Shown in pieces: positions 2,583 to 35,903 of a stretch of DNA of 37,167 bases. The stretch comes from Gammaproteobacteria bacterium. GTDB taxonomy: Bacteria; Pseudomonadota; Gammaproteobacteria; SZUA-229. A program made the position numbers and the translations under genes. Under the pieces are notes generated by a model, which saw only the letters and a program-made list of their open reading frames with translations, had not been told where the DNA came from and made no database searches. The stretch is taken from contig JAOUKT010000034.1 in NCBI GenBank assembly GCA_029882395.1, positions 1 through 37,167 on the forward strand. Direction: 5' to 3'. The first letter of the stretch is position 1; the number at the start of each line of letters is the position of its first letter.

Positions 2583-4466
2583 TTAAATTTCCGCCAGGTT
2601 ACCCGTCGACTCTAACCAGGCCTTGCGATCTGAGGCGCGTTTTTTTGCCAGCAACATATCCATCAACTCATGGGTGTTGTCACCGGGCTGTATTTGCAGC
2701 TGTACCAGTCGTCTTGTATCCGGCGCAATCGAGGTCTCGCGCAATTGCATCGGGTTCATTTCACCCAGACCTTTAAAACGTGTGACCTGGATTTTGCCTT
2801 TCATTTTTTCAGCATCGATACGATCCAGCACACCTTGTCTTTCTGCTTCATCGAGCGCATAGAACACCTCTTTGCCAACATCGATACGAAATAACGGTGG
2901 CATCGCCACATAAATATGCCCCGCTTCAACCAGTGTTCTGAAGTGACGCAGAAATAAAGCACATAATAAGGTAGCAATGTGGTAGCCGTCTGAATCGGCA
3001 TCGGCCAGAATACATACCTTGCCGTATCGCAAGTCTTTAATATCGGTTGAGCCTGGCTCTACGCCCAGCGCGATAGAGATGTCATGCACTTCCTGCGAAG
3101 CCAGTACCTGATCTGACTCCACCTCCCAGGTGTTTAATATTTTTCCACGCAGCGGCATGATTGCCTGAAAGGTTCTGTCGCGCGCTTGCTTGGCTGAACC
3201 GCCGGCAGAGTCACCCTCTACCAGAAATAATTCGGCGCGGGCCAAATCGCTAGAACTGCAGTCAGCTAACTTGCCCGGCAACGCCGGACCCGCCGAGACT
3301 TTTTTCCGCGCGACTTTTTTACCGGCTTTTTGTCGGCTCTGTGCACTCTCGATAGCCAGCATAGCAATGCGCTCGGCATCTTCTGTGTGCTGGTTTAACC
3401 ACAAACTGAAAGCATCTTTAACCACGCCAGAAACAAACGGCGCACATTCACGCGAAGACAGGCGCTCTTTAGTTTGCCCTGAAAACTGCGGGTCTTCATG
3501 TTTGATTGATAAAACGTAGCTGACTTTATCCCAGACATCTTCCGGGCTGATCTTAACGCCACGGGGTACCAGATTACGAAACTCACAAAACTCACGCACC
3601 GCATCGGTTAAACCGCTGCGCAAACCATTAACGTGTGTGCCTCCTTGCGCGGTCGGTATCAGGTTAACGTAACTTTCGGTCACGCCTTCGCCGCCTTCTG
3701 GCAGCCAGAACAATGCCCACTCTACGGCTTCGTGTTCACTACTGAACGCACCCACAAACGGTTCAGCCGGCAGGCATTCACGGCCGGTTAACGATTGCGC
3801 TAAATAATCTTCAAGCCCGGTCTCGTAATACCAGCTTTCTGTTTCACCACTGGCTTCGTCTTGAAAATCAACGGTTAAACCCGGGCATAACACGGCCTTG
3901 GCCCGCAGTACATGCTTTAGCTGGCGAATTGAAAACTTGGCAGAATCAAAATAACTCGCATCTGGCCAGAACCTTAAACGTGTGCCGGTGTTCTTTTTGG
4001 CAACCTTGCCGACCTCTGTCAGCTCTGTGCATTTATCGCCGTTGGCAAAGCTGATGGCCGAGACCACGCCGCCACGATTAATTTCGACCTCAACTTTTTT
4101 CGATAAGGCATTGACTACCGAAATACCGACGCCGTGCAAGCCGCCGGAAAACTGGTAATTTTTATTCGAAAATTTTCCGCCGGCGTGTAATCGTGTGAGC
4201 ACCAGCTCAACACCGGAGATGCCTTCTTCCGGGTGCATATCCACCGGCATGCCGCGGCCATCATCCTGTACTTCGAGTGAGCCGTCTTTGAATACTGTCA
4301 CCTGAATGCGCGATGCGTGGCCCGCCACCGCTTCATCGACGCTGTTATCGATGACTTCTTGCGCCAGGTGATTGGGGCGGGTTGTATCTGTGTACATACC
4401 CGGACGTTTTTTAACCGGGTCCAGTCCTGATAGCACCTCTATCGAGGAAGCATCATAATCGCTCAT
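2583..4466 (-). CDS. parE: DNA topoisomerase IV subunit B (ParE)
   Basis: This is the ATPase subunit of topoisomerase IV. The 627-residue length is typical of ParE and clearly shorter than GyrB. The GHKL ATPase domain shows D-N-S-V-D-E-A (Asn41), D-D-G-R-G-M-P (68-74) and G-G-L-H-G-V-G (108-114). The transducer loop has Q-T-K-E-R-L (331-336). The TOPRIM domain has E-G-D-S-A-G-G (417-423), P-L-R-G-K-I-L-N, and the Mg2+ aspartates in A-D-A-D-S-D-G-Y (Asp489, 491, 493). It precedes parC and is divergent from the helicase-nuclease gene. The gene starts at the ATG at 4466, with only a modest GGTAA upstream. Between residues 380 and 392 there is a Lys-rich stretch (K-K-V-A-R-K-K-V) linking to the TOPRIM domain. 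Confidence 0.97.
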   Translation of the reverse strand: MSDYDASSIEVLSGLDPVKKRPGMYTDTTRPNHLAQEVIDNSVDEAVAGHASRIQVTVFKDGSLEVQDDGRGMPVDMHPEEGISGVELVLTRLHAGGKFSNKNYQFSGGLHGVGISVVNALSKKVEVEINRGGVVSAISFANGDKCTELTEVGKVAKKNTGTRLRFWPDASYFDSAKFSIRQLKHVLRAKAVLCPGLTVDFQDEASGETESWYYETGLEDYLAQSLTGRECLPAEPFVGAFSSEHEAVEWALFWLPEGGEGVTESYVNLIPTAQGGTHVNGLRSGLTDAVREFCEFRNLVPRGVKISPEDVWDKVSYVLSIKHEDPQFSGQTKERLSSRECAPFVSGVVKDAFSLWLNQHTEDAERIAMLAIESAQSRQKAGKKVARKKVSAGPALPGKLADCSSSDLARAELFLVEGDSAGGSAKQARDRTFQAIMPLRGKILNTWEVESDQVLASQEVHDISIALGVEPGSTDIKDLRYGKVCILADADSDGYHIATLLCALFLRHFRTLVEAGHIYVAMPPLFRIDVGKEVFYALDEAERQGVLDRIDAEKMKGKIQVTRFKGLGEMNPMQLRETSIAPDTRRLVQLQIQPGDNTHELMDMLLAKKRASDRKAWLESTGNLAEI

Positions 4467-14056: not shown

Positions 14057-14572
14057 TTACTTCTTCTTAGCTTTACGACGCTTTTTGCCCTTTTTAGGAG
14101 CCATAGATTTTTCCATTTTAGCCATTGCAGACTTCATCCAGTTATCCATGAACTTAGCAGCGGCTGCATCTTTATCAGATGACAGTTTAATCAGCGCATC
14201 TTCACGCTTCTTCATAGCAGAAACCTGATCTTTAGCGGCTTTAACTTCAGCTCTCAGTGCATCCATTTGAGCTTTAGCGGCTGCTTTAGCGGCTGTTGCT
14301 TTAGCAGCGGCCGCTTTTTTCTTCTCTGCAACTACTTTCTTTTTTGCAGCGTCGGCTTTTTTCTTTGCGGCTGCCGCTTTTTTCTTTGCGGCTGTGGCAG
14401 CTTTTTTCTTTACTGCGGCAGCTTTTTTCTTTGCTGCTGCGGCTTTTTTCTTTGCGGCTGCAGCTGCTTTATTAGCTGCTGGTTTTTTCTTAGCAGCTAC
14501 TTTCTTCTTAGCGACTACTTTTTTCTTAGCAGCTACTTTTTTCTTAGCTGGTTTTTTCTTTGCTTTTGCCAT
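14057..14572 (-). CDS. Lys/Ala-rich histone H1-like DNA-binding protein
   Basis: The product is 171 residues from the ATG at 14572, which has GAGG eight bases upstream; an extra ten in-frame codons to 14602 lack such a site. Residues 1-92 are almost pure Lys and Ala in A-A-K-K-K-type repeats, with twelve K-K-K blocks, like eukaryotic H1 tails, AlgP/HC2-type proteins and other bacterial H1 homologues. Residues 100-150 differ. They form a plausible amphipathic helix or coiled coil containing all five non-initiator methionines except Met157 (M-D-A-L-R-A-E-V, K-F-M-D-N-W-M-K-S). The last residues are again basic (K-K-G-K-K-R-R-K-A-K-K-K). It probably binds DNA or RNA non-specifically and acts in nucleoid organisation; that is inferred from composition. 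It faces moeA across a shared terminator. Confidence 0.8.
   Translation of the reverse strand: MAKAKKKPAKKKVAAKKKVVAKKKVAAKKKPAANKAAAAAKKKAAAAKKKAAAVKKKAATAAKKKAAAAKKKADAAKKKVVAEKKKAAAAKATAAKAAAKAQMDALRAEVKAAKDQVSAMKKREDALIKLSSDKDAAAAKFMDNWMKSAMAKMEKSMAPKKGKKRRKAKKK
14297..14572 (-). repeat. Low-complexity Lys-Ala codon repeat
   Basis: Within the H1-like gene the DNA is an irregular tandem repeat of AAA/AAG and GCN codons, 12-18 bases per unit, corresponding to residues 1-92. Such arrays change length readily by slippage. It is not a CRISPR, as there are no unique spacers. Confidence 0.8.
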
Positions 14573-15091
14573 TGTTAGGGCCTCTTTTTTGTGTTGATTC
14601 ATGAATTATAATTCGTAAATCCAGTTTTACAAATTTTTATTGAGTTTTTTTGTATTTATTTTCATAAAAACAGAAAATAATTAAGAATTTATTAATATTT
14701 ATGCTTCAAAAAGAAAATATATTGATGTTAGGGCGTTATGCAATGTTTAATTACATTTTATCTCTTAAATGAATCGACTTTTCATCCTCATAACTTAAAA
14801 ATAAAATGCGATAAATAATCAATTGATTCGGTTTTATATAAATTGGCGCTAATAATAAATTTAGAGAGCTAAAAACCGCGCCGCAGACACTGTTTCAAAG
14901 CATTGATATTAATTTATTTCTATTAATTCAAACATTGGCGACAAAATTTAGCATTTTATTACTGGCTATTCGACTTTTCAGATCAATCAGGTATGATTTG
15001 CAGCAATTTAATAAAACCTGCATGACGACAGTCTTTCAGACAACTTTGATTTGCATAAACACACCGCTTTTCTTTAGCCAGGATTAATAAA
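14573..15091. other. AT-rich intergenic region upstream of the H1-like and RDD genes
   Basis: About 500 bases of strongly AT-rich sequence separate two divergent genes and must hold both promoters. A TATGAT hexamer near 14993 is a possible -10 for the RDD gene, but without a good -35. I see no ORF, RNA gene or long repeat. Confidence 0.5.
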
Positions 15092-27912: not shown

Positions 27913-28663
27913 TTAGTTTTTGTTTTATACGTAATAACTGATGCCAGGCCAGCCTTTTATTCTGTGGATTAATCAGTAACTCATCGGCTGAAGGCATCAC
28001 CATCAGCGGCCGTGAATGGTACTGATAAACCTTGGCTGATAATTCCTGCAGGCTTTTTTTACTCACCAGCAAATGTTGCGCGCTGAGCTCGCCAAAAGCA
28101 ATGATCAGTTCAGGCTTTAACATTTCAATTTGCTGACTAAGGTATTGTTCACAACAAAGCACTTCTGTTGTCCTCAGTTCACGATCGTCTGCCAACTGGC
28201 ATTTAACCAGACCGGTTAAAAAAACATCGGCCCGTTGAATATCTATCGCCTGCAGCATTTTGCTCAGCAGCTGACTGGAAGCCGCCGTTAACAACGCTGC
28301 ATCGGACTCTGCATTGAAGGCGGGCGCTGTTGCAATCAACATCACTCTTGCCGCGTGTGAGCCCTCTGCCACCACCGACTTGGTCTTTGTCTGATGCAGT
28401 TCACAGGCTACACATGAGTGGATGGCTTTTTCCAGCGTTAAGCCGTCAGGCACGGCTTGCTTAGCATCGCTGACTTCAGTCTCTGCTGCGGTTTCAATCG
28501 CCTGTGGAATGCGTTCTTTTTCATCGGGCGTAGCTGCAACTGAAGCTGATTGGAATCGACTCTGCCAGACCTGAATGCCCATCATTTGCAAATAATGCTG
28601 ACGCAATTCGGGGCTCATATGAGCCCCGTTTTTAGTTTCATTGTCGTCTTCAGACATTAACAT
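27905..28663 (-). CDS. Uracil-DNA glycosylase family 4-like protein with degenerate active site
   Basis: The 252 residues comprise a variable, probably disordered N-terminus (1-75) and a UDG-fold domain. The domain keeps four cysteines spaced as in Fe-S uracil-DNA glycosylases: C84-x2-C87, C155, and C170 or C171, with 15 residues between 155 and 171. It also keeps the folds around V-F-L-T-G-L-V-K-C and E-L-I-I-A-F-G. The family 4 motif G-E-A-P-G is replaced by A-T-A-P-A (111-115), and the H-P-S motif by M-P-S (223-225). Catalysis on uracil is therefore doubtful; a structural or Fe-S sensing role is possible. It overlaps leuA by 14 bases (eight if Met3 is used) and rimI by eight, so it is embedded in that operon. 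Confidence 0.78.
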
Positions 28664-30197
28664 GTTGTGGGTGTTCGCGATTATCAGGGTTGCGCAACAG
28701 ATTCAGCGCATGGATATAAGCATTTGCCGATGCAATAACGATATCGGTATCAGCTCCCTGACCGTTTATAATTCGGCCATCCAGTTCCAGCCTGACGGTG
28801 ACCTCGCCCTGCGAATCGGTACCGGTGGTTATATTGTTAACAGAATATAACTTCAGTTTAGTACCACTGTTTGCAACCTGCTCTATGGCTTTGAAGGTGG
28901 CATCAACCGGACCACTGCCCGTTGATGAGGCATTGAATTCCTGACCATCGACGGAAACAATCATTTCTGCCAGCGGCACTTCACCGGTCTCGGAACAGAC
29001 TTTCAGACTCACCAGCTTGTAATGCTCGTCTGCCAGCTGAGAAGAGGCCTCACTGACTAATGCGCGCAAATCTTCGTCATAGATTTCATGCTTTTTATCC
29101 GCCAGTTCTTTAAACCGGGAAAAGGCTTCATTTAATGCTTCTTCAGAATCGAATTCAATATCGAGATCTTTCAGGCAACTGCGAAAAGCATTTCGACCTG
29201 AATGCTTGCCCAGAACGATGCGGTTATCACTCCAGCCGACATCCTGCGCCCGCATAATTTCGTAAGTTTCGCGGTTTTTCAAGACACCGTCCTGATGAAT
29301 ACCGGACTCATGAGCAAAGGCATTGGCACCTACGATGGCTTTATTAGGCTGAACAGCAAAACCTGTAATGCCCGACACCAGTCTTGAGCAATTCATAATC
29401 TGGGTAGTATCAATCCCGGTATTACAGCGGAACATGTCCTGACGCGTACGAATCGCCATCACCACTTCTTCCAGTGAGGCATTACCCGCGCGTTCACCAA
29501 GACCGTTAATGGTGCACTCGACCTGGCGGGCACCATTTTGTACTGCGGAGAGTGAGTTGGCTACCGCTAACCCCAGATCATTATGGCAATGCACTGAAAA
29601 CACCGCTTTGTCAGAATTAGGGATTCTTTCGATCAGGTTTTTAATTAATGAGCCAAACTGTTCGGGCACGTTATAACCCACTGTATCCGGGATATTGATC
29701 GTTGTTGCACCGGCATCTATTACCGCTTCTATCACGCGGCATAAAAAATCAAGCTCTGACCGGCCGGCATCTTCCGGTGAAAACTCTACATTATCAGTAA
29801 AACCGCGCGCCATTTTTACCGCGTTAACGGCCTGCTCCAATACCGCATCAGGCTCCATGCGCAGTTTTTGTTGCATATGAATTGGTGAGGTGGCAATAAA
29901 GGTATGAATGCGCGGATTGACTGCATTTTTTAATGCCTCAGCGCAGCGATCAATGTCTTTTTGTAAAGCCCGCGACAGACCACAGACACTGCTGTTTTTA
30001 ATGACATCTGCCACCGCTTTCACCGCTTCAAAATCACCCTGACTGGCTATTGGGAAACCGGCTTCAATCACATCGACTCGCATTTTTTCCAGTGCTTTGG
30101 CAATGCGAACTTTTTCATCTCTGGTCATTGATGCGCCGGGACTTTGCTCACCATCTCGCAAAGTGGTATCAAATATAATCAGCTTATCTGCACTCAT
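28650..30197 (-). CDS. leuA: 2-isopropylmalate synthase LeuA
   Basis: LeuA condenses acetyl-CoA with 2-oxoisovalerate, the first committed step of leucine synthesis. I start it at 30197, not 30209: GGAG stands six bases before this second ATG, and the upstream ATG lacks any site. The 515 residues include D-T-T-L-R-D-G-E-Q (10-18), the metal ligands His203 and His205 in H-C-H-N-D-L-G-L, and [10 protein letters not shown]. The C-terminal regulatory domain, where leucine inhibits, spans about 390-515. Numbering is one more than E. coli His202/204. A dedicated promoter and Leu-rich leader lie upstream. The gene follows pssA and precedes the glycosylase-like gene. Confidence 0.97.
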
Positions 30198-30250
30198 GTT
30201 CTGCTCCATTTACCGATACAATCATCGGAAAATCACTAACGGTTTTATAA

Positions 30251-30330
30251 ATCCTCTGCTGAGGATGTATGAATTCGGGTTTTTGATACGGTTAAGCCTC
30301 GCCAGGACATCATCATCTGCCTTACGGCAG
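30251..30330 (-). promoter_or_regulatory. Candidate leucine attenuator hairpins upstream of leuA
   Basis: On the minus strand, ATCTGC (30355-30350), overlapping the first Leu codons, can pair with GCAGAT (30320-30315). CTGCC/GGCAG (30330-30326 and 30321-30317) is an alternative that encloses the leader stop. GATGT (30311-30307) can pair with ACATC (30268-30264) as an antiterminator. The last stem, ATCCTC/GAGGAT (30266-30261 and 30256-30251), is perfect with loop AGCA, but its tail is TTTATAAAA, weak for an intrinsic terminator. A further hairpin CCGAT/ATCGG (30228-30213) sits before the leuA ribosome-binding site. Confidence 0.55.
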
Positions 30331-30435
30331 CAGTAGAAATAAAACAGAGAGCAGATCAGCTTTAGGCAGGCACAATGAAACAGCACGGTGTGATGCCGCA
30401 TGTTTATTTTCAAATTGTTTCATTGTGTTTTTCAT
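30322..30435 (-). CDS. Leu-rich leader peptide of leuA
   Basis: This short ORF, up to 37 codons (33 from the second ATG at 30423), ends L-L-S-V-L-F-L-L-L-P-stop. Six of its last ten sense codons are Leu, written CTG, CTC, TTA, CTA, CTG, CTG. A run of regulatory codons directly before mutually exclusive hairpins is the hallmark of amino-acid attenuators. It begins within about ten bases of the predicted transcription start, so the second ATG is more likely used. There is no clear Shine-Dalgarno sequence. A 59- to 63-codon frame overlapping it (30222-30413) is better explained as a shadow. Confidence 0.68.
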   Translation of the reverse strand: MKNTMKQFENKHAASHRAVSLCLPKADLLSVLFLLLP

Positions 30436-30445
30436 AGATAATATG

Positions 30446-30474
30446 AATATAGCGCTTTAGCCTGTCATTGCCAA
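30446..30474 (-). promoter_or_regulatory. leuA: leuA promoter
   Basis: On the minus strand TTGGCA (30474-30469) and TATATT (30451-30446), each five of six to consensus, are separated by exactly 17 bases. The predicted start is near 30439. It lies just past the pssA stop codon, so leuA has its own transcript about 240 bases upstream of its start codon. Confidence 0.6.
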
Positions 30475-32982: not shown

Positions 32983-34680
32983 TTACACTAACACCATTTC
33001 GTTAAGACCAGCACCGGCTGGAACCATTGGATAAACATTTTCTTCAGGGTCGGTAATAACATCAAGGAACACCAGACGATCCTTATGTTTATTAAAGGCG
33101 GCATCCAGCGCAGCATCCAGATCTTCCGGTTTCTCTACCCGGATACCAACGTGACCATATGCCTCAACTAATGCAACAAAATCAGGCAAAACATTCATCA
33201 CTGACTGCGAATAACGTTTGTCGTAGAAAAACTCCTGCCACTGACGCACCATGCCCATAAAACCATTATTTAAATTTAGGATTTTAATCGGCAAACCATA
33301 CTGTAAACAGGTCGCCAGTTCCTGAATACACATCTGAATACTCGACTCACCGGTAATACACACCACGGTTTCACCCTGGTGTGCCAGTTGCACACCCATC
33401 GCCGCAGGCAAACCAAAACCCATGGTGCCCAGACCACCGGAGTTAATCCAGCGACGTGGCTTATCAAATTTATAATACTGCGCCGCCCACATTTGATGCT
33501 GCCCCACATCGGAGGTGACATAGGCATCGCCATTGGTTAATTCGTAAACCTTTTTGATTGCGCTCTGGGGCTTGATTTTATCACCCTCAGTATCAAACTT
33601 GAGACAATCCTGAGCACGCCAGACATCAATTTGCTGCCACCAGGTGTCAATTGCAGATGTATCGACTTTGCTCTCAGACACATCTATCTGTTTAATCAAC
33701 GCCTCAAGTACTTCTGCCACTTCACCAACAATAGGCACATCGACCTTAACGGTTTTCGCAATCGAGGCAGGGTCAACATCAACGTGTACGATTTGAGCAT
33801 CGGGACAAAACTTTTCTAAATTGCCAGTCACACGATCATCAAATCGTGCACCGATAGCAATCAAAACATCACAATGATGCATCGCCATATTGGCTTCATA
33901 AGTACCGTGCATGCCGAGCATGCCGACAAACTGTTTATCAGTGGCCGGATAAGCACCCAGACCCATCAGTGTATTGGTGACCGGATAGCCCAGCTTCTGT
34001 GAAAACTCGACCAGTTGCTGACAACCCTCGCCCAAAATAACACCACCACCGGTATAGATCACCGGCTTTTTAGCCGATAAAATCAGCTCAACAGCTTTCT
34101 TAATCTGCCCAACATGACCTTTGGACGATGGATTGTAAGAACGCATGCTGATGTCTTTTGGATAACTGAATTTAGCCTTTGCCCCCGTGACATCTTTGGG
34201 CACGTCCACAACAACCGGGCCAGGGCGGCCGGTTGTTGCAACATAAAATGCTTTTTTAAGGGTTGTGGCCAGCTCATTAATATCTTTAACCAAGAAATTA
34301 TGTTTGACGATCGGCCGTGTAATACCAATTGAGTCACACTCCTGAAACGCATCATTACCAATCAGACTGGTCGGAACCTGGCCGGTGATCACAACCATGG
34401 GTATTGAATCCATATAAGCGGTCGCAATGCCAGTAACCGCATTCGTGGCACCCGGACCTGAGGTCACCAGTACAGCGCCAGGCTTTCCGGTTGAGCGTGC
34501 ATAACCGTCGGCGGCATGCGTTGCCGCCTGTTCATGACGCACCAGAATATGTTTGACGTCTTCCTGTTTGTACAATGCATCGTATATATGCAACACCGCA
34601 CCGCCAGGATACCCGAACAAATACTCAACACCTTCTTCTTTGAGGCATTGAACCAGAATTTCTGCACCCGTTAATTCCAC
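32983..34680 (-). CDS. ilvB: Acetolactate synthase large (catalytic) subunit
   Basis: This ThDP-dependent enzyme condenses pyruvate with pyruvate or 2-oxobutyrate; it could equally be named ilvI. Over 565 residues it shows F-G-Y-P-G-G (22-27) and the catalytic glutamate Glu50 in R-H-E-Q-A-A. The ThDP/Mg2+ motif runs from G444-E-S-S to N471-N472-G. The usual third position of that motif is Gly (G-D-G-S or G-E-G-S), so Ser446 is a departure from what I remember. The start codon is GTG at 34680, with GGAG nine bases upstream lying in a small hairpin. Confidence 0.95.
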   Translation of the reverse strand: MELTGAEILVQCLKEEGVEYLFGYPGGAVLHIYDALYKQEDVKHILVRHEQAATHAADGYARSTGKPGAVLVTSGPGATNAVTGIATAYMDSIPMVVITGQVPTSLIGNDAFQECDSIGITRPIVKHNFLVKDINELATTLKKAFYVATTGRPGPVVVDVPKDVTGAKAKFSYPKDISMRSYNPSSKGHVGQIKKAVELILSAKKPVIYTGGGVILGEGCQQLVEFSQKLGYPVTNTLMGLGAYPATDKQFVGMLGMHGTYEANMAMHHCDVLIAIGARFDDRVTGNLEKFCPDAQIVHVDVDPASIAKTVKVDVPIVGEVAEVLEALIKQIDVSESKVDTSAIDTWWQQIDVWRAQDCLKFDTEGDKIKPQSAIKKVYELTNGDAYVTSDVGQHQMWAAQYYKFDKPRRWINSGGLGTMGFGLPAAMGVQLAHQGETVVCITGESSIQMCIQELATCLQYGLPIKILNLNNGFMGMVRQWQEFFYDKRYSQSVMNVLPDFVALVEAYGHVGIRVEKPEDLDAALDAAFNKHKDRLVFLDVITDPEENVYPMVPAGAGLNEMVLV

Positions 34681-34800
34681 TTAATTAGACTCCAGAGTCT
34701 GCGCTTTTTCTATGCATACCGCATAAAAAAGCACTGAATAACCTTAAAAATCATAGACTTTTAGCTGCATAGCAGCCGAACAGTCAAGTTTAATACTTAT
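34681..34800 (-). promoter_or_regulatory. ilvB 5' region: weak promoter and hairpins over the ribosome-binding site
   Basis: TTGACT (34787-34782) and TAAAAG (34763-34758) make a possible promoter with an 18-base spacer. A dyad GCTGC-TAT-GCAGC (34776-34764) sits within it. Downstream is a long hairpin, GCTTTTTTATGC against GCATAGAAAAAGC (34732-34721 and 34715-34703). It is followed by AGACT/AGTCT (34700-34696 and 34691-34687), whose loop and stem contain the GGAG of ilvB. No Ile/Val/Leu-rich leader peptide of the leuA kind was found. Confidence 0.4.
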
Positions 34801-34915
34801 GACGCTAAAATTCACGCAAAAAATAAGAAAATGAGCGTATATTAATGTTTTGATGGCAAATTTATACCTTTATGCAACGATTCATGACTAAACACTTTGT
34901 TTTCGCTGCAAACAT

Positions 34916-34944
34916 AAAAAAACCCGGCCAGGCCGGGTTTTTTT
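34916..34944. terminator. Bidirectional intrinsic terminator after the DUF302-like gene
   Basis: CCCGG/CCGGG within CCCGGCCAGGCCGGG (34923-34937) is flanked by seven A and seven T. It ends the minus-strand DUF302-like transcript 20 bases past its stop. Confidence 0.88.
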
Positions 34945-34964
34945 ATCACGCAAATGAAACAGGC

Positions 34965-35903
34965 TTAAAACTCGTCTGTTTCACCACCGGCAACCGCTGC
35001 CAGCGCTTTCTTAATACCACCAGGCGCTCCCATGATATTCATAAAACTGTTTTCGCCAGCCATACTTAAATCAGGGAAATTGATCGCAATGCGAAAACGG
35101 CCATTCAAGGCTTCAATTTTATTACCAACGACTACCATTTCATAAGGCAAATGCGCCGCATGTTTGTCGTTATCAAAATCAATCACACTCATTATATAAC
35201 CATCATCCTGATACTTATTAAACATATCAGGTGATTTTAGTCCAACACCGTATACCGTCATGTTTTTACCTGGCACATCAACACGGTAGACTTTATAAGC
35301 GCCTACTTTATTTTTCTTAAAACCCTTTTCAATAGCGGCGATAGCCTGCTGGTAAGTGCTATATTCAGCAATCTCATCGGCCTCATCAAACTCTTCCATG
35401 CCCCAGGCATAATTATACTTGCGCAGCTTTTTCTCTGTTAAACCTTCAGCGCCAAAGTCTTTTTGATAACCCAGCGCTTTAATTAAATCAGCACGAATGG
35501 CTTTAAAATCATTTTTAAAGCGATAAACATAAGCCATATATTCTGGGTTAGTAAAAGCAACCTGCAGCTTATCCTTCACCTGGCTCACAGAAACACGCTG
35601 CACCGCACCATAAGCACCGGCTTTTTCATTTTTTACTATATTCAGCACCGTTTCATTGGTAATGGAAAAAATATGCGCGTTTTTATACGGCGAATAATCA
35701 CCCACGATATTGAAACCGGCATTTTTCAACGTACTTTTAGTGCTGGCAACCGCGGCATTAAAATCGCCCGCCGGGGTCTTCGCCATTACAAAGGGTTTAT
35801 ACAGCTTTGCATCGGCTGCGTAGGCTGATGAAAATGAGAATAAAAAAACGGTTAAAAAAGCAATAAGGCATTTAAAAGAATCTTTTCTAAAAAAAAGTCT
35901 CAT
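34965..35903 (-). CDS. Secreted DUF302-like protein
   Basis: The 312-residue protein has a clear type I signal peptide (C-L-I-A-F-L-T-V-F-L-F-S-F, cleavage predicted after A-Y-A, residue 29), so it is periplasmic. Residues 40-130 resemble a DUF302 domain: a helix ending L-K-N-A-G-F, then H-I-F-S-I-T-N, and A-Y-G-A-V-Q-R-V-S-V with L-Q-V-A-F-T-N-P-E-Y. The rest (130-312) is not recognised; it includes M-T-V-Y-G-V-G-L and a C-terminal M-G-A-P-G-G-I-K-K-A-L. GGAG lies upstream of the ATG. A terminator separates it from the upstream porin-like gene, so it probably has weak read-through or its own promoter. The function is unknown. Confidence 0.65.
   Translation of the reverse strand: MRLFFRKDSFKCLIAFLTVFLFSFSSAYAADAKLYKPFVMAKTPAGDFNAAVASTKSTLKNAGFNIVGDYSPYKNAHIFSITNETVLNIVKNEKAGAYGAVQRVSVSQVKDKLQVAFTNPEYMAYVYRFKNDFKAIRADLIKALGYQKDFGAEGLTEKKLRKYNYAWGMEEFDEADEIAEYSTYQQAIAAIEKGFKKNKVGAYKVYRVDVPGKNMTVYGVGLKSPDMFNKYQDDGYIMSVIDFDNDKHAAHLPYEMVVVGNKIEALNGRFRIAINFPDLSMAGENSFMNIMGAPGGIKKALAAVAGGETDEF

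Follow-up and report, generated by a model that had tools for sequence, protein, structure and literature searches.

A candidate translational attenuator with a Leu-codon leader before leuA in Gammaproteobacteria

Gammaproteobacterial amino-acid attenuation is usually equated with terminator hairpins. A short, leucine-rich leader ORF lies before leuA in a gammaproteobacterial contig of 37,167 nucleotides, called the window, and raises the question of whether such a leader acts through a terminator or by other means. The reading preferred here, held with moderate confidence, is that the conserved Leu-codon leader acts as a translational attenuator. The sequence evidence favours control of leuA translation by pairing between leader codons and the ribosome-binding site over classical transcriptional attenuation.

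The leuA locus of the window

The gene presumed to be controlled is identified by NCBIfam as 2-isopropylmalate synthase, at 909 bits against a cut-off of 729. Its longest ORF spans 28650-30209 on the minus strand, and the ATG at 30197 is the likely start because a GGAG lies at 30207-30204 (sequence reading). Ahead of leuA and in the same direction are ilvB, a gene for the small subunit of acetolactate synthase, ilvC and pssA (NCBIfam), and the leader ORF sits in the gap between pssA and leuA.

28650..30197, minus strand: leuA, 2-isopropylmalate synthase, the presumed controlled gene (NCBIfam; relatives carry homologs)
30446..30474, minus strand: promoter-like site TTGGCA-17-TATATT, 10 of 12 matches, 10 nt 5' of the leader ATG
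30322..30435, minus strand: leader ORF of 37 codons with an ATG start, near-leaderless, ending MKNTMKQFENKHAASHRAVSLCLPKADLLSVLFLLLP-stop (related leaders in relatives)
30328..30354, minus strand: Leu-codon run CTG CTC TCT GTT TTA TTT CTA CTG CTG, the predicted stalling zone and anti-Shine-Dalgarno arm (sequence reading, in-frame Leu enrichment and pairing with the Shine-Dalgarno sequence)

An earlier note on this DNA had described a near-consensus promoter, a leader ORF with a Leu-rich end, and a leader start almost at the start of the transcript. The ORF is confirmed at 30435-30322, with a 37-residue peptide ending DLLSVLFLLLP, and 10 nt separate the -10 hexamer from its ATG. The promoter-like site is likewise present, although a promoter search returned two sites versus 1.2 +/- 1.2 in shuffled sequence, such that the match by itself is not significant. 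The fold of 30215-30420 is also unremarkable, with a z of -0.07. The case therefore rests on comparison with relatives, because neither the promoter match nor this fold rises above chance. The conservation of the Leu codons and stems that the note had proposed checking is found in relatives. Its further claim, that leuA is separately controlled through charged tRNA-Leu, holds up in part, in that leuA has a promoter-like site of its own and a Leu-codon leader before it.

Elsewhere in the window, no branched-chain leader ORF is evident by eye 5' of ilvB (34661-34965), where a GC-rich hairpin followed by a T-run could be the terminator of a neighbouring gene. The stretch 14057-14602 encodes a protein very rich in Lys and Ala, histone H1-like by eye and with no NCBIfam match.

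Conservation of the leader and its RNA core

Regions upstream of leuA were collected from relatives via a search of 58 genomes. They share a recurring plan, consisting of a Leu-rich ORF, a hairpin (H2) of the form CUGCC-NUAR-GGCAG, about 12 nt, the motif nYCU-GGCG-AGRn, and ACGC. An exact pattern built from these loci was scanned through a species-genome collection, stated to cover 84,980 species, and occurs at 66 places; at 57 of them a leuA match follows on the same strand after 39-457 nt. The other nine (L053, L060, L064, L065, L067, L079, L084, L087 and L099), which include four near-identical Enterobacter matches and are mostly chance-like with the exception of L053, were dropped before leaders were counted.

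A covariance model (R1) was built from 50 sequences, the window included. In genomes drawn from the class, 82 of 369 match at E <= 0.01, with one place per genome, and a leuA match lies downstream in 80 of the 82, the window's own included (the exceptions are L198 and L204). Within the family the model matches 45 of 54 genomes and all 22 near-complete ones (E <= 1; weakest best match 1.3e-4). A draw from the phylum gave matches in 2 of 398 genomes, one of them the window's own, and the 22 genomes listed all belong to the same class. Given these class, family and phylum counts, the spread is patchy: the model finds the element often in some gammaproteobacterial lineages, and many others either lack it or carry a form that the model does not recognise. 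The named records linked to leuA are metagenome-assembled genomes labelled Gammaproteobacteria or one of its orders or families, apart from one labelled just Proteobacteria. A search of the leader against plasmids returned no matches. A search with LeuA against plasmids returned 521 records, and among the 40 listed none resembled, by eye, the main actinobacterial leuA.

The parsed set comprises 192 leaders, of which 131 unique ones were used; leaders lacking the core or a recognised leuA start were left out. They were sorted into 60 lineages, a grouping of our own from genus and family labels in which unlabelled loci are counted singly. With one representative per lineage, the 12 codons before H2 hold 5.18 Leu codons in frame, the other two frames hold 1.52 and 0.42, and all six Leu codons are in use in these stretches across the 60 lineages. 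Leu-rich leader ORFs before leuA, mostly ending near Leu-Leu-Pro, were also observed in other families (L034, L036, L037, L039, L040, L042, L043 and L046). The leader thus seems more widely spread than the pseudoknot described below, since this set has no exact CUGGCGAG core in its leaders.

Promoter-like elements, a TTGGCA-type -35 with a TATA(G/T)T -10, recur near the leader start in relatives. At a score threshold of at least 8.5 of 12.5, 117 of the 129 leaders with enough upstream sequence pass. In 85 of these 117 leaders, at most 14 nt separate the -10 hexamer from the first in-frame start, and in the other 32 the distance is 17-51 nt; therefore, as read from this spacing, a 5' UTR of only a few bases is a recurring but not universal feature of the leader. 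A precedent for a leader peptide with no ribosome-binding site is C. glutamicum ilvBNC, according to the title of a study cited in PMC4046766.

Three structural features follow the Leu run in the window.

30317..30330, minus strand: hairpin H2, CUGCC-GUAA-GGCAG, with the stop codon in its loop (same-shape stems in distant lineages)
30297..30306, minus strand: hairpin H3, CCU-GGCG-AGG, three pairs, first stem of a likely pseudoknot (covariation in relatives)
30288..30290, minus strand: CGU, which would pair with loop GCG (30302-30300), with one G-U wobble, as the second stem of a likely H-type pseudoknot (loop-CGY covariation)

In 59 of 60 lineages the H2 region has a folding energy of -3 kcal/mol or lower, and its shape is kept while its sequence varies (CUGCC/GGCAG, GCCGC/GCGGC, UGCGCC/GGCGCA). 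H2 usually contains the stop codon, which lies outside the loop in some leaders, such as L009. Arrest of the peptide at Leu-Pro-stop was considered and rejected, given that L188 and L200 end in Leu codons followed by Arg-Arg-stop and have a different H2 stem; the Pro thus seems to be dictated by the RNA stem.

In H3, all 60 lineages form the pair that directly flanks CUGGCGAG, nearly always as C-G. The second pair outward is formed in 50 of 60 lineages, versus 23.7 in shuffled sequence, as CG, GC, AU and UA as well as wobbles, and the third has no support (23 of 60 versus 26.5); in the window the second pair, U30307 with C30296, is not formed. In the alignment, the invariant columns include those of the core. 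The conserved CUGGCGAG...ACGC core likely forms an H-type pseudoknot, to judge from how the second loop base varies with the last base of CGY. Among the 131 leaders the combinations are G-CGC in 95, G-CGU in 15, A-CGU in 21 and A-CGC in none, and by lineage entries they are 52, 9, 4 and 0 (Fisher p = 0.001). Seventeen of the 21 A-CGU leaders belong to one genus, the sister genus of which has G as the loop base. The window combines G with CGU, which makes a wobble, and its relative L004 combines A with CGU. The support for the second stem is clear but comes from one pair, because only one of its three pairs varies. Comparison thus recovers a leader ORF with its Leu run, H2, covariation within H3 and between its loop and CGY, and linkage of these to leuA.

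Two genomes with the family label f144, L167 and L171, have no pseudoknot core but a plain hairpin at that position (CUGGCGUCGCGCCAG and CUGGCAUCGCGCCAG), as though a simpler structure preserved the contact.

Pairing of leader codons with the leuA Shine-Dalgarno sequence

The complementarity between the Leu run and the leuA Shine-Dalgarno (SD) sequence exceeds, at the level of sequence, that of permuted, shuffled and neighbouring-region controls. With one random representative from each of the 60 lineages, the duplex between the 36-nt Leu run and the 16 nt before the leuA start averages -12.8 kcal/mol, versus -11.6 +/- 0.28 for permuted SDs, a value reached in none of 20,000 permutations. Neither the 38 nt preceding the run (p = 0.43) nor the linker between pseudoknot and SD (p = 0.61) shows an effect in the same test. 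The advantage is positive in 41 lineages and negative in 19, with a mean percentile of 0.61 (p = 0.003); g12, g6 and g167 are among the lineages with no advantage, and in genus g12 the SD can sit in a local hairpin. The fraction of SD nucleotides paired to the 36-nt run is 0.42; letter-shuffled runs reach 0.26 (p = 3e-5) and the 36 nt before the run 0.20 (p = 7e-6). Examples of the duplex are CUACUCC:GGAGUAG, ACCUGCU:AGCAGGU, GCUAUCUC:GAGAUAGC and UUACUCC:GGAGUAA.

Folding of the whole leader points the same way. In minimum-energy folds, 39 of 60 lineages pair at least four of ten SD bases with the leader and 21 pair fewer than four, and SD bases are paired on average 45% with the leader versus 3-10% with each other part. 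When 27 nt at -27..-1 from H2 were masked in silico, SD accessibility rose by more than 0.1 in 28 of 60 lineages. The SD was freed in 21 of 60 by a mask at -18..+8, in 15 at -36..-10, in 12 at -9..+17 and in 11 at -45..-19, and the eleven masks that do not overlap -27..-1 freed it in just 2-10 of 60. Two results count against a specific match. Chimeras with foreign leaders pair almost equally (0.38 versus 0.455; own leader better in 33 of 60, p = 0.03), and shuffling the order of codons costs only 0.77 kcal/mol (p = 0.016). Part of the effect therefore comes with the codons themselves, because Leu codons are CU-rich and partly anti-SD by composition.

The predicted fold of the window itself, from 30372 to 30178, has an energy of -53.7 kcal/mol, and 5 of 200 shuffles are equally good (z = -2.08). 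Its base stem has the following arms.

30336..30361, minus strand: 5' arm of the predicted base stem, leader codons A-D-L-L-S-V-L-F (minimum-free-energy fold, z = -2.08)
30181..30207, minus strand: 3' arm of the predicted base stem, with the SD GGAG (30207-30204), the ATG (30197-30195) and the first leuA codons (fold; sequence reading)

Against the preferred reading, masking the run in the window lowered SD accessibility from 0.28 to 0.06-0.10; the SD stays closed because the leader segment -75..-37 from H2 takes over the pairing. Only one of the 27-nt masks, at -9..+17, raised accessibility, to 0.52, and masking the whole of -75..-1 raised it to 0.45. The run mask raised accessibility by 0.17-0.19 in the sister L002, and in the sisters L003 and L004 the SD is paired with a leader segment further upstream from the outset. 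The permutation advantage in the window's genus is modest (percentile 0.66). In this genus the SD is thus predicted, from these folds, to be held by leader codons; the part could be played by more than one segment, and one stalled ribosome may not be enough to open it.

In the translational attenuator preferred here, a ribosome would clear the short ORF when leucine is plentiful, after which H2 and the pseudoknot would fold. With these folded, the Leu run would pair with the SD and start codon of leuA, turning it off. When charged tRNA-Leu is scarce, a ribosome stalled on the run would keep it off the SD, and leuA would be translated. The pseudoknot is proposed to compact the loop, which would bring the two distant arms together. 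In most lineages the Leu run itself, and otherwise other leader codons, would close the SD unless occupied by a ribosome.

Competing explanations and known systems

Rho-dependent attenuation, in which a stalled or terminating leader ribosome would gate the access of Rho to the stretch between pseudoknot and leuA, is unlikely but survives best among the alternatives. It would fit the absence of a convincing intrinsic terminator and a linker that is often C-rich and G-poor (by eye only), and the available text of PMC1262725 proposes such a mechanism for terminator-less leader peptides before actinobacterial cys operons. The linker is short, however, with 56-138 nt between core and leuA start in 129 of 131 leaders, and Rho would leave the complementarity between Leu run and SD unexplained.

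Classical transcriptional attenuation, in which, as in the leu operons of enteric bacteria, stalling at Leu codons decides whether an antiterminator or an intrinsic terminator forms, is judged improbable. The leader peptide with its Leu run, the promoter-like site and the hairpins 3' of the run all suit it, as does a further hairpin, AUCCUC-AGCA-GAGGAU, lower in the window. Terminator-like sites occur between H2 and leuA in 6 of 60 lineages, versus 1.5 expected by shuffling, but in three of the six H2 itself accounts for the site and U runs in the tails reach four at most, and no convincing intrinsic terminator or conserved U-tract was found before leuA in the 60 lineages. The conserved H2 and pseudoknot are not mutual alternatives, because they do not overlap. 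A swap of the H2 5' arm to the H3 loop (UGCC:GGCG) was also considered and rejected, since lineages with a GACG loop retain H2 and lose that pairing (by eye). Rfam gave no match at gathering thresholds across the whole window, T-box, riboswitch and Leu_leader families included, and a lax scan of the leader gave five weak matches only, far under gathering scores.

These results separate the parts of what the earlier note had proposed for the RNA. Its observation that the final stem lacks a strong U-tract agrees with the tails and terminator-like sites just described. The hairpins that it placed after the leader exist (30330-30317 and 30306-30297), but not as alternatives, and no terminator/antiterminator pair was seen. 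The enteric leu layout that it invoked is not supported, given this, the missing Leu_leader match and the lack of a conserved terminator or U-tract.

Leu_leader in Rfam, RF00512, is the enterobacterial leu operon attenuator. That system shares with the present one a Leu-rich leader peptide with consecutive Leu codons before leuA and a proposed sensing by stalling. It differs in that no terminator/antiterminator or U-tract was seen here, there is no Rfam match and control is likely translational. The leuA attenuator of Shewanella is also a gammaproteobacterial leuA leader with Leu codons, but terminator, antiterminator and anti-antiterminator stems are described for it in the available part of the source (PMC2659441). 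The ilvB-II and ilvB-OMG motifs, as far as the source text at hand describes them, likewise place a uORF rich in branched-chain codons before a single biosynthetic gene, and ilvB-II is found once per genome, as is the element here; ilvB-II differs by ending in an intrinsic terminator and by preceding ilvB rather than leuA (PMC10272879).

The pseudoknot might instead be the sensor, with a small ligand or protein binding the near-invariant CUGGCGAG...ACGC and the leader peptide secondary, but this is quite improbable. The invariance of the core columns would suit such binding, and a protein is suggested for the actinobacterial LEU element in the accessible text of PMC1262725. Against this, the in-frame enrichment of Leu codons persists in distant lineages, and by our own reading 10 of the 13 extra-family loci shown have a Leu-rich leader ORF before leuA, one of these ten with the exact core; the replacement of the core by a plain hairpin in L167 and L171 also speaks against it. 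That the region is merely an unconstrained CU-rich spacer, a product of chance, is hardly credible: a promoter match no better than shuffles and the unremarkable fold of 30215-30420 would fit, but it is contradicted by the leuA-linked recurrence across many families, by the compensatory changes that H3 and the loop-CGY pairing show, and by the conservation as a whole.

The closest known system to the preferred translational attenuator is the LEU element of Actinobacteria, itself a prediction only (Seliverstov et al. 2005, PMC1262725). The architecture matches that element as described in its text, rather than by sequence alignment. According to the available portion of that paper, the LEU element lies before leuA and has a leader ORF containing consecutive Leu codons and a pseudoknot, features shared by the element here, where the pseudoknot is a likely one; it also has a base stem of the Leu run with the leuA SD. 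The corresponding stem is statistically supported here, although unclear in 21 of 60 folds, and in the window the SD is shared with a second leader segment. The same portion names no terminator for the LEU element, and the plan here is likewise terminator-free. The LEU element belongs to a different phylum and its alignment, as given there, has no conserved unpaired nucleotides, whereas the loop bases here are near-invariant; the stop-codon hairpin present here is not described in that portion (PMC1262725). Also reported there is a leader mutation of S. coelicolor leuA that had some effect, inconsistent with classical attenuation, and this counts against the reading preferred here (PMC1262725).

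No such gammaproteobacterial leuA element was found in a full-text literature search that covered few subscription papers. A broader claim is put forward more tentatively than the mechanism itself: that these leaders may make up a family of leuA switches that is widespread in Gammaproteobacteria and works with no terminator, with Leu codons serving as sensor and also as lock of the ribosome-binding site and a near-invariant H-type pseudoknot at the centre, on a plan shared with Actinobacteria by descent or convergence. If true, a terminator-free plan at the level of translation, found in print just as an actinobacterial prediction, would extend to many gammaproteobacterial lineages. The compact, likely pseudoknot matches no Rfam family, and the covariance model and the named loci are further products of the analysis.

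Two loci carry leader-like sequence with no LeuA match. L053, on the minus strand near 4012 of a Centralia metagenome-assembled genome, has a complete-looking leader with the end LFLFFIIRLILP-stop, H2, CCUGGCGAGG and ACGCA. It precedes an ORF that is F-box-like by eye, at a locus with no LeuA match, and may be an orphan or re-used leader. In L198 (G101), a hairpin and CCCUGGCGAGGGUCGUACGC at about 300-380 lie 5' of an ORF with no LeuA match.
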